From: Campylobacteraceae bacterium
Lineage (GTDB): Bacteria; Campylobacterota; Campylobacteria; Campylobacterales; Campylobacteraceae
NCBI GenBank assembly: GCA_031266555.1
Contig: JAISAU010000003.1
Location: 62,001 to 126,000 of the forward strand
Direction of reading: 5' to 3'
DNA: 64,000 nucleotides
The translations under genes were made by a program, and so were the position numbers. Shown here piece by piece: positions 39,905 to 46,096 of this stretch (positions are counted from its first letter, which is position 1; the number at the start of each line of letters is the position of its first letter). The notes beneath the pieces are model-generated. The model was not told where the DNA came from and ran no database searches. It saw only the letters and a program-made list of their open reading frames with translations.

Positions 39905-40024
39905 GTGAGTAAAATCGCTCCGTTAGTATCCGTACTAAACGGCTCTTATCTATCTATGCGAACATATAATAAATTCGTTTTTTATTCACATGTAACGTTT
40001 TGTGAGAGAAAATCTTATGATTGA
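39905..40024 (+). CDS. Small ORF or leader with strong ribosome binding site
   Basis: 39 codons from GTG: MSKIAPLVSVLNGSYLSMRT and on to a stop that overlaps the start region of the next gene. AAAGGAGATTTT precedes the GTG at ideal spacing, much better than anything before the 40002/40017 starts. The surrounding text (CTCAAAGGAG ... GTGAGTAAAATC) resembles that upstream of the paralogue at 41192 (CTCAAAGAAAGG ... ATGAGTGCAAAAC), so this may be the original start of the gene, now separated from its body by a frameshift. Too short to classify. Confidence 0.4.
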   Translation: MSKIAPLVSVLNGSYLSMRTYNKFVFYSHVTFCERKSYD

Positions 40025-41018
40025 TGTTGTCGCTCGCATTATAGGTATTTTCATTAAAAAATCCGTGAGTATAAACGACCTCTCATATCTATTGGGCAAA
40101 GCCGAACAGACGCACGGAGTTGGGCGTTCGATAAATATCTTTAAAAAAAATGTCTTAAATATACCCACCATTGCCTTAGTTTTATTTTGTACGGCGGCTT
40201 TTATAATATTCGGTCTTTCCATAACTGTTATATTGAACGCGGTGTCTAAAACAACTACAAGCGCTTCAGCAAACAGCAACAATAAAATCCAAACTCCTAA
40301 AATCAGTGCGCTAATAGACGATGATAAAGTCCAAACTCCTAAAACAAACATACCTACGAGTCATGATGAAATCCGAACTTATCAAGTCAATACGCACATA
40401 AGCAACAGAGAATACATTTGCACAGGCGGCGGAGAGGTAATGTACGGCTATCAGCTTCCTCCTTGTCCCGACCTAAAAGAAAACGATAAAACGCTTCTTG
40501 GTATAGATACAAACGACAACGGCGTGAGAGATGATGTTGAAGTGTGGATATATCACCATTACGATAAGTATATCCCTTGCGTGGAAGTGGAGGTAAACGT
40601 TACTGCTCCTGACGGCAAAATAGTACGAGGATTTAAAGATGTGTGCGAAGATACGGTGAAGCCTTATCATCAAATAGTGCGTGAAATCACTATGCAATAT
40701 GCTAAAGCTTATCAAATAGTCATACAAAAACCTGAAAAGGCAAAAAAAACCATAAAGTATATGGATAATGCGTTGCTTTGCGAATTATATTTTCTAACAG
40801 ATGCAAAATATTTGAATGAACCTACTTTTAGAGATAAAAACAATAATATATATAAGTATAAAGAACTTGAAGATATTCAATTAAATACTGTCCAGCGAGC
40901 AAGAGCTTTTAGAAAATATATCTTTTATTTGAAAGGTGGAAGATATGAATTGGAAGATGGATTAAAAAAACGCCGCAATGCTTGCGATTTTGATGTAGAT
41001 AAACTTTTGGAGAAATAA
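40017..41018 (+). CDS. Membrane-anchored paralogue with Ca-binding-like DxNDNGxRDD motif (unknown function)
   Basis: About 333 aa. The N-terminus is cytoplasmic, followed by one transmembrane helix near residues 46-75 (IPTIALVLFCTAAFIIFGLS), a Lys/Thr-rich linker with two copies of (I/V)QTPK, and a domain also found in the next gene: CTGGGEVMYGYQLPPCPD, TNDNGVRDDVEVWIYHHYD, PYHQIVREITMQYAKAYQIV and a C-terminal ACDFDVDKLL. The DTNDNGVRDD run resembles calcium-binding thrombospondin-3/EF-hand-like loops. Two starts exist (GTG 40002, ATG 40017); neither has a good ribosome binding site. The paralogue at 41192 has a lipoprotein signal instead, so the N-terminus here may have been replaced. Function unknown. 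Confidence 0.6.
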   Translation: MIDVVARIIGIFIKKSVSINDLSYLLGKAEQTHGVGRSINIFKKNVLNIPTIALVLFCTAAFIIFGLSITVILNAVSKTTTSASANSNNKIQTPKISALIDDDKVQTPKTNIPTSHDEIRTYQVNTHISNREYICTGGGEVMYGYQLPPCPDLKENDKTLLGIDTNDNGVRDDVEVWIYHHYDKYIPCVEVEVNVTAPDGKIVRGFKDVCEDTVKPYHQIVREITMQYAKAYQIVIQKPEKAKKTIKYMDNALLCELYFLTDAKYLNEPTFRDKNNNIYKYKELEDIQLNTVQRARAFRKYIFYLKGGRYELEDGLKKRRNACDFDVDKLLEK

Positions 41019-41019
41019 T

Positions 41020-41136
41020 ATGAAAAAATTATTTTTTATATTTTTACCAATAATTCTTTTTTGCGCTCTTACATGTAACGTTATGAAAGGTTTAAATGCG
41101 AACGAATATATAAACGATATCTACTTATACATGTAA
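41020..41136 (+). pseudogene. Truncated copy of the 41940 gene, ended by a TACATGTAA
   Basis: 38 codons from ATG that match the first residues of the 41940 gene: MKKLFFIFLPIILFC against MKKLLFVFLPIILFC, then VMKGLN(A/V)NE and NDIY in both. The match ends at GATATCTACT; here the sequence continues TATACATGTAA, whose last codon is the stop. The gene junction with the preceding ORF (GAGAAATAATATG) is the same as at 41938. It is therefore the stump of a duplicated downstream gene. A second and third TACATGTA lie at 41128 and 41157. Confidence 0.7.
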
Positions 41137-41191
41137 GCGTAAAATATTTTATGTTTACATGTATAAATAATCTCAAAGAAAGGATATAGCT

Positions 41192-41938
41192 ATGAGTGCA
41201 AAACTCTTTATTCTGTCATTGACCGCCGTTCTTATGTTAAGCGCGTGCGGCAAAGACAAAGGTTCTTCAAACACAACAAGTGGTGGAGGTAAGCCTACTC
41301 CTCCAATCGTAACCGAGGACGTAAGCGACAAAAAATACGTCTGCACAGGCGGCGGAGAGGTAATGTACGGATATCAACTTCCTCCTTGTCCCGACTCAAA
41401 AGAAAACGATAAAACGCTTCTTGGTGTAGATACAAACGACAACGGCGTAAGAGACGATGTAGAGGTGTGGATATATCACAATTACGATACTTACAAAAAT
41501 TGCACAAAAACAATAGAAGTGGTAACGGAACCGGTAACGGGGAAAGATATAAATATTACTTATGAAATTGTGCACACAACTTGCACCGATGAATATATAC
41601 CTTACCACCAAATAGTGCGAGAAATCGCTATGCAATATGCTAAAGCTTATCAGATAGTGATACAAGAACCTAAAAAGGCGAGAGAAACAGAAAAGTTTTT
41701 ATCAAAGGCTGGTGAATGTTCATTTTATTTTGAAAAAATGGCAAAATATGAAAACGAACCTATTCTAATAGATAATTACGAATTATATAAGGAACTTGAT
41801 GAAATTCAATTAAACACTATTCAAAGAGCGAGAGCTTACAGCGAATATAACTTCCATTTAAGCGGCACATCTTACCGACCATCAGAAGATTATCGTATTG
41901 CTTGCGATTTTGACGTAGATAAGCTTTTGGGGAAATAA
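41192..41938 (+). CDS. Lipoprotein with DxNDNGxRDD motif, paralogue of 40017 (unknown function)
   Basis: 248 aa. The signal peptide MSAKLFILSLTAVLMLSAC has a lipobox LSAC (Cys19), then a Ser/Gly/Pro linker. The mature part shares with the upstream protein CTGGGEVMYGYQLPPCPD, GVDTNDNGVRDDVEVWIYHN, PYHQIVREIAMQYAKAYQIV, DEIQLNTIQRARAYSEYNFH and ACDFDVDKLLGK. Conserved cysteines suggest disulfides outside the cytoplasm. AAAGAAAGG precedes the ATG. It directly precedes the 41940 gene (one base gap), forming a two-gene unit that was duplicated. Function unknown; calcium binding is inference from the motif. Confidence 0.75.
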   Translation: MSAKLFILSLTAVLMLSACGKDKGSSNTTSGGGKPTPPIVTEDVSDKKYVCTGGGEVMYGYQLPPCPDSKENDKTLLGVDTNDNGVRDDVEVWIYHNYDTYKNCTKTIEVVTEPVTGKDINITYEIVHTTCTDEYIPYHQIVREIAMQYAKAYQIVIQEPKKARETEKFLSKAGECSFYFEKMAKYENEPILIDNYELYKELDEIQLNTIQRARAYSEYNFHLSGTSYRPSEDYRIACDFDVDKLLGK

Positions 41939-44055: not shown

Positions 44056-44081
44056 AAAGCGGGGATACCCCCCCCCGCTTT
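44056..44081 (+). terminator. GC-rich hairpin with C9 run after the island gene
   Basis: AAAGCGGGG pairs with CCCCGCTTT around a loop made of ATA and extra C residues. The C run (44068-44076) is nine bases long and may vary in length. It lies seven bases after the stop at 44049. Confidence 0.55.
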
Positions 44082-44849: not shown

Positions 44850-46041
44850 TTATAAATTCTGCCAATAAAAATAAGGCAACCCGTTATTTTTATCAGGATT
44901 TATCTCCCACGGATGAGTATCGTCATTTCCAAAATCCCAACCTAAATCCGTTTCGTAAGTTGATTTGTCTTTAAAGTCGTTTATAGTTTTACTTATGCCG
45001 TTTGAGTCATCTTCCGCACCGCCATAAACCGCGCCTTTTACTTCCATCTCATCTAAAGCGAAATTGTTTGTCGCTGTTCCGCTGGTGATTTGCCCAACTA
45101 TGCGATTTACAAAATTTTCAGAAGGATTTCCAGTTACAAAAAGATTTATAGCGGCATTGTTCGTTATGGAACTATCATCAATATATCCCGCTATACCGCC
45201 GACAAAATTATTATTTCCATAAATATTTCCGCTGGAGTAACTACTTGTTATATTGCTGTAATAAACGTCTCCCGCTATACCGCCGACATTGTAAGTACCG
45301 CTGATATCTCCGATGGAGTAACTGTTTGCTATGGCACTATCCCTCATATATCCCGTTATACCTCCAACATATTCGTTATTGCTTTTTATCTCTTTGCCCT
45401 CCTCTATTTCGATTCCAAGATTTTTTATTTGAGCGTTTTTAATAGCGCCAAAAAATCCGACAAACCTAGTAGCTCTATCTGCCCAGATATTAGTTATTTT
45501 ATGGTTATTGCCGTTAAAAATACCCGTAAAAGAGTTGTCAAAATCACCTATCGGCTGCCAACCCTCAGCGTCAAAACCTGCCGCTCCGTCTGTTGCGTTA
45601 AGTTCTATATCGTTTAGCAAAATATATTTGCCGCCTAAATTATCCCTTACGGCATTTAAGTCCGCTTGATCGGTTATCTCTTGAACGTCCGAAGAGAGAT
45701 AAAAATAGACATTTTTAGTCAAACTGTAATTTTCATAAGCGAGATTACCCGCGACCGCAACGCCATTTGCCGCATATATCGGAGAAATGCCAAGTCCATT
45801 AGCAATATCGGTGATATTGTAATTTTCACCTGGTTTTGATACAGAGTCTATAACATCAAGATTATCATCCAAAAATGAGATTGTATACTCAATCTTAGTA
45901 CCGCTTGTAGTAGAACTACCTCCTCCGCCACCACCGCCGCAGCCAATTAAAAAAAGACTAATTAAGAGAGAGAGAGAGAGAGAGAGACGCTTTAAACTTA
46001 AACAAGTATAAAGCGCTGGATTTAGTTATTGAAACAGCCAT
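44850..46041 (-). CDS. GLUG-repeat lipoprotein, phase-variable through an (AG)11 tract; out of frame as assembled
   Basis: From ATG 46041 (ribosome binding site AAAGGAG) the frame reads MAVSITKSSALYLFKFKA, enters the AG/CT repeat as SLSLSLSL and stops at 45958. One repeat unit more (or two fewer) would join it to the long frame that begins LISLFLIGCGGGGGGG, a perfect lipobox (LIGC), giving a 397-aa lipoprotein. The mature part has an N-terminal region (ITDQADLNAVRDNLGGKYIL, LNDIELN), then GLUG-type repeats: VGGITGYMRDSAIANSYSIG, VGGIAGDVYYSNITSSYSSG and VGGIAGYIDDSSITNNAAIN. The C-terminus (WDFGNDDTHPWEINPDKNNG LPYF, split here) is typical of such surface proteins. A surface adhesin-like role is inferred; as assembled only a start inside the long frame (TTG 45872) could be used. 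Confidence 0.85.
45965..45987. repeat. Dinucleotide repeat (AG)11A inside a signal-peptide coding region
   Basis: Twenty-three bases of alternating AG on the plus strand (CT on the coding strand), between the ATG/Shine-Dalgarno and the lipobox of the GLUG lipoprotein. Each unit changes the reading frame by two bases; 12 or 9 units would be in frame. This is the structure of a classical contingency locus. Confidence 0.92.
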
Positions 46042-46066
46042 TGTAAACTCCTTTAGTCTGAAATTA

Positions 46067-46096
46067 ATTTACAAAAAGTAAATTTTGTAAATTATA
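46067..46096 (-). promoter_or_regulatory. Promoter -10 and overlapping inverted repeat upstream of the GLUG lipoprotein
   Basis: On the minus strand TATAAT lies at 46096-46091, about 50 bases before the ATG. A perfect 10-bp inverted repeat ATTTACAAAA / TTTTGTAAAT (6-base spacer, 46067-46092) overlaps its downstream end. It could be an operator or an mRNA 5'-end hairpin; no -35 box is clear, as usual in Campylobacterota. Confidence 0.45.

Follow-up and report, generated by a model that had tools for sequence, protein, structure and literature searches.

Why would a gene for a long lipoprotein have its only convincing start codon in the wrong reading frame? The question is raised by a locus on the minus strand of a 64,000-nucleotide (nt) stretch of DNA from a Campylobacteraceae bacterium (GenBank assembly GCA_031266555.1, contig JAISAU010000003.1, positions 62,001 to 126,000), referred to here as the window. 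An earlier reading of the window, made without database searches, had proposed that a dinucleotide repeat turns a GLUG-type lipoprotein gene on and off by slipped-strand mispairing. The analysis described here makes it very probable that the repeat is a translational contingency switch run by slipped-strand mispairing and that the assembled allele is the OFF form.

The repeat is (TC)11 followed by T, 23 nt in all or (TC)11.5, and lies inside the signal-peptide codons of the Glug lipoprotein gene (Table 1). From the ATG there are 18 codons, then the CT tract, and the frame ends in a stop after 27 codons (MAVSITKSSALYLFKFKASLSLSLSLN and the stop). This ATG is the only start with a Shine-Dalgarno sequence and it is out of frame with the lipoprotein. 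The frame carrying the lipobox (SLSLSLLISLFLIGC-GGGG) continues into a 363-residue body (44853-45941). The two frames are offset by one repeat unit, and adding one unit or removing two joins them. The original prediction had described this arrangement, with the repeat in the signal peptide and the gene OFF as assembled, and it was exact in its start, Shine-Dalgarno sequence, tract and unit arithmetic. It had also named an alternative in-frame start as the case that would count against it; for the window gene this is excluded, as upstream of the tract the lipoprotein frame contains no ATG, GTG or TTG. A charged n-region, a hydrophobic core and LIGC with its Cys are found in the post-tract frame, as in bacterial lipoproteins, and processing is predicted.

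How do relatives of this gene behave? The sample consists of 14 species genomes of one Campylobacteraceae genus, one assembly per species, all short-read metagenome bins. A leader profile built from sequence only matches all 14 genomes, with 1-15 matches each. The leader consists of a promoter, the start, FKFKA, the CT tract and the lipobox. For 72 leader copies the frame of the start was compared with the frame of the lipobox Cys. Starts were picked by Shine-Dalgarno strength, blind to frame, and four were set by hand after inspection. The scored tracts range from 3 to 31 nt. When the tract is 9 nt or shorter, 30 of 33 copies are in frame, versus 6 of 29 when it is 17 nt or longer (Fisher p=1.5e-8). 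None of 20,000 label permutations within genomes reached the observed difference, and the contrast holds at other cut-offs and after leaving out any genome. The long-tract copies that are not in frame fall into both wrong phases (9 and 14), and the distribution over the three phases is compatible with a uniform one (p=0.18). In nearly all long-tract copies both OFF frames run into a stop no more than about 20 nt past the tract. An in-frame alternative start is missing in 23 of 25 long-tract OFF genes, the window gene included; the exceptions are G012:C5 and G007:C106. The signal-peptide core, measured from the last charge to the Cys, has a median of 22 residues in long-tract copies versus 16 in short-tract copies.

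The bodies behind the two kinds of tract also differ. Complete bodies of long-tract OFF genes have 124-603 codons, and pairs of OFF genes diverge most at the third codon position. Of the five short-tract OFF genes, four have decayed bodies of only 37-124 codons. Related loci thus stand in different phases while their OFF genes are intact, as expected of contingency loci. The split of phases, the intact OFF bodies and the decay seen with short tracts together point to reversible slippage; they are not predicted by one-way loss, by a fixed recoding offset or by a hidden start. On these grounds the on/off switching of the original prediction is supported.

The genome that contains the window is a 1.52-Mb draft of 74.6% completeness in 25 contigs. 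By a first-order Markov estimate, a genome of this size should have 3e-5 CT runs of at least 18 nt. The search for other dinucleotide tracts that had been recommended turned up five AG/CT runs with 9-11.5 units and a single one with 6; runs of 7-8 units were absent. Three of the five long runs are at the identical leader position in three lipoprotein genes, namely the window gene, a second Glug gene (L009) and a gene with an unrelated body (L011). The tract is therefore far above chance and sits in the 5' part of the coding region, its unit length is not divisible by three, and gains or losses of units connect or disconnect the frame. All three genes are out of frame, two being short by one unit and one long by one unit. 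A fourth leader copy (G000:C12:57463) has a repeat of only 7 nt and is in frame. This genome therefore has at least four leader copies, three long and OFF and one short and ON.

It is suggested that CT units within the signal-peptide codons are gained or lost through slipped-strand mispairing when the DNA is replicated. The repeat may be tolerated in the signal-peptide core because CT reads Ser-Leu in any frame; the hydrophobic core would be kept at any length and only the post-tract frame would shift. A gain or loss of three units would lengthen or shorten the core by two residues. In one phase of three the ribosome would arrive at the lipobox and a surface lipoprotein would be made, and in the other two it would meet a stop soon after the tract. 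Whether a gene is on or off would thus depend on its repeat number. About half of the genus genomes have three to six long-tract members, whose independent switching could give many surface combinations. As each genome would use one leader and switch for several lipoproteins whose bodies are unrelated, a population may be a mosaic of surface coats.

Could the leader also move? It has been considered that the whole leader, promoter and lipobox included, acts as a cassette that moves or converts, and that recombination across the leader and CT tract swaps bodies. Such exchange would add to frame switching and would not be its opposite. In G005, one leader that is 100% identical throughout is joined to three bodies, the contigs ending at exact 118-119-nt overlaps, and in G012 two leaders lead into one body. 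The mean similarity of leaders is 0.72-0.73 inside one genome and 0.63-0.66 across genomes, for related and unrelated bodies alike, and no label permutation matched this difference. However, repeated leaders break short-read assemblies regardless, recent duplication or gene conversion would suffice without a switching system, and neither a recombinase nor a silent-cassette array was identified. Body exchange behind the shared leader is possible, though we regard the cassette as rather unlikely. If it does occur, frame switching and body exchange act together in the genus, and a non-pathogenic bacterium of the insect gut would build its surface combinatorially.

The three readings that would replace the slippage switch fare much worse. 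That the window gene is a pseudogene, its frameshift being a one-way loss, is suggested by the fact that it and both long-tract siblings in its genome are out of frame. However, its 363-codon body is intact where shuffled versions average 26 stops (16-29 for the three bodies in this genome), and OFF-OFF pairs diverge in coding fashion. Genus-wide, 23 of 29 long-tract copies are OFF, most with full bodies, whereas truncation prevails among OFF copies with short tracts. One-way loss is therefore very improbable. Equally hard to sustain is the view that the number of repeats was misread in sequencing or assembly and that the true gene is in frame. Dinucleotide tracts can stutter, and the source is a short-read metagenome-assembled genome. 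However, tracts of 17-31 nt are far below read length, 19-nt GA tracts in three TetR orthologues from like assemblies sit within intact open reading frames of 214-222 amino acids, and the error would have to recur in the majority of long-tract copies across 11 species. Programmed ribosomal frameshifting or transcriptional slippage, yielding lipoprotein from the out-of-frame allele, could be imagined where a repetitive tract adjoins TTTAAGTTTAAA and stops come soon after, but it requires a fixed offset and is scarcely credible for tracts of such variable length with no conserved slip site, found in all three phases (6/9/14) when long and with short-tract homologues plainly in frame.

Several points weigh against the slippage switch. 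With one assembly per species and no reads, within-species variation is not visible, and stutter in short-read bins could shift a tract by one unit. All three long-tract members of the window's genome are OFF, an outcome with a chance of 30%. Paralogues are non-independent data points, and the starts were chosen by rule or, in four cases, by hand. We infer live switching, the display and function of the lipoproteins at the surface, and any selective benefit.

The body itself supports the proposed class of protein. The original prediction had described a lipobox followed by a long GLUG-type lipoprotein, and this is borne out by Pfam PF07581 (Glug), which scores 27.6 bits on the body alone versus a gathering cut-off of 20.5; with part of the leader included the score is 18.2 bits, under the cut-off. 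The AlphaFold2 model of the body is a beta-solenoid with a mean pLDDT of 86. A PDB sequence search with the body gave no match. The nearest PDB entry by Foldseek is 3n6z (BACOVA_03286, E 2.6e-7), a Bacteroides protein labelled putative IgA1 protease. The likeness to this and other Glug beta-solenoid proteins is in the predicted body fold, and identity as an IgA1 protease is rejected; a search of the window body for the HExxH metalloprotease motif found none, and hence it gives no sign of protease activity.

Table 1. Features of the lipoprotein locus; positions are those of the window.
Feature	Position	Strand	Basis or remark
-10 box of the leader promoter (TATAAT)	46091-46096	-	TATAAT about 50-58 nt ahead of the start codon in most leader loci
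Small inverted repeat in the 5' untranslated region (ATTTAC-TTTTT-GTAAAT)	46067-46083	-	Position recurs in many loci
Shine-Dalgarno sequence (AAAGGAG)	46048-46054	-	Sequence
Leader reading frame as assembled (OFF): ATG at 46041, 27 codons and stop, with charged FKFKA, then SLSLSL	45958-46041	-	
(TC)11T dinucleotide tract, proposed switch, in the signal-peptide hydrophobic core	45965-45987	-	
Lipobox L-I-G-C, in a frame that differs from the ATG frame	45939-45950	-	
Mature lipoprotein body including stop: Glug repeats, predicted beta-solenoid (363 aa)	44850-45941	-	Pfam, AlphaFold2, Foldseek

The inverted repeat lies just after the -10 box, with an equivalent site in sibling loci. Its arms covary between loci (ATTCAT/ATGAAT, ATTCAC/GTGAAT and ATTTGC/GCAAAT), and it may form a hairpin at the 5' end of the mRNA.

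How widely is the leader used? TC runs of at least 17 nt are present in 11 of the 14 species genomes (38 tracts besides those of the window's genome), and about 30 such repeats are at the same leader position across the genus. No TG repeats of 7 units were found in any of the 14 genomes. The leader precedes at least five unrelated body types, including the Glug solenoid, RCC1 and several unnamed ones. By BLAST the body families are mutually unrelated; they comprise a large Glug cluster, RCC1 repeats, a cluster that includes the short-tract sibling from the window's genome, and several others. Some members of the Glug cluster have Ig-like domains in front. In the rest of the family the tract and lipobox pattern gave one match only, in Campylobacter troglodytis, which has no lipobox reading and is attributed to chance. 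Profile matches outside the genus reach E 1e-8; seven of them were inspected and proved to be CT tracts from unrelated surroundings that lack the lipobox leader. The locus that had been singled out therefore belongs to a set of at least four copies in its genome and about 72 genus-wide, a scale beyond that of the earlier note.

The mechanism is known from the same phylum, above all from adhesins in Helicobacter pylori, a pathogen of the stomach. Its oipA gene has CT repeats in the signal-peptide codons, and hopZ and sabA use the same mechanism (PMC10564699; PMC3960876). Like oipA/hopH, hopZ, sabA and babA/babB, the genes described here encode surface proteins, as predicted, with a CT tract in the 5' coding region whose frame decides between on and off. 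The H. pylori proteins belong to the Hop family of outer-membrane proteins, whereas here one shared leader precedes lipoproteins with Glug, RCC1 and unrelated bodies in presumed insect-gut bacteria. The window protein, with a predicted lipidated beta-solenoid as body, is not a member of the Hop family and is Hop-like in its switching only. Campylobacter belongs to the same family of bacteria and shares phase variation by simple repeats, but poly-G/C makes up 91% of its contingency tracts, and 77 genomes yielded only 44 dinucleotide repeats (PMC6321876), whereas dinucleotide tracts prevail in the lipoprotein class described here. Mycoplasma vlp, vsp and vpma are likewise families of variable surface lipoproteins, and related signal sequences have been reported for vsp and vpma (PMC2268961). 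However, the Mycoplasma families switch by promoter tracts or site-specific inversion, and here the repeat is within the signal peptide.

Outside the genus, Campylobacterota bacterium MS502-29 (L091) has a lipoprotein gene in which (TC)16 separates the start from the lipobox, the two being out of frame in the assembly. Its leader and body are unrelated to the leader family, and it looks like an independent instance of the architecture. The MS502-29 genome holds very many CT tracts. In a Holophagales UBA2201 genome, a secreted-protein gene has a signal peptide that is largely a 23-nt CT tract (L107:1330-1352, reverse strand) and is apparently in frame.

New features are the class of protein, the use of one leader for unrelated bodies, the internal control given by short tracts, and the occurrence in a bacterium that is not a pathogen. 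A literature search within one paper library found no description of this leader family, nor of phase variation joined with GLUG, and among the papers listed on phase variation, termites and simple sequence repeats none dealt with such a system in termite-gut bacteria. We read the genus as termite-gut bacteria from the naming style of its bins, which are like the termite-gut metagenome bins described in PMC9137090. If so, what would maintain a large lipoprotein phasome in uncultured bacteria of this kind? Phase variation has been studied mostly in pathogens and is explained by immune escape. Termites are without antibodies, and therefore predation by phages or competition for surfaces in the gut can be put to the test as causes. 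The contrast between locked short-tract siblings, which are in frame, and long-tract siblings in random phase also offers a template for spotting contingency loci in metagenome assemblies that lack strain variation. The family carries a warning for annotation as well, since most such genes would be called truncated or would be missed.

Other repeats were seen along the way. Beside an efflux operon of the RND type, the TetR-type regulator gene has a (GA)9.5 tract of 19 nt coding Glu-Arg within an intact frame in three species (L010:4819-5487, L045 and L055), which is possibly a repressor switch or a constrained stretch. Intergenic GA tracts of about 9 units, with a TTTTAAG-like sequence before them, precede lipoprotein, outer-membrane or other genes by 145-250 bp (L012:5001-5018, L058, L059, L067, L068 and L077) and are possibly promoter-type switches. 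In one TonB-dependent receptor gene the start codon borders a 21-nt GA tract (L043, 4000-4020, reverse strand), and this gene is out of frame as assembled. The genus also has runs of at least 9 G. Runs of 11-15 G in the window's genome (G000 C14:108138-108150, C21:15863-15877 and C21:139148-139158) are candidate phase-variable loci of the Campylobacter type. The poly-C run at 44068-44076 of the window was rejected as a contingency tract, as it forms one side of a stem that resembles a terminator (AAAGCGGGG-ATA-CCCCCCCCCGCTTT). At 40002-41938 of the window, a neighbouring gene pair shares a long common stretch (CTGGGEVMYGYQLPPCPD..DNGVRDDVEVWIYH) that marks a local duplication, and the second gene has a lipoprotein-like signal peptide.
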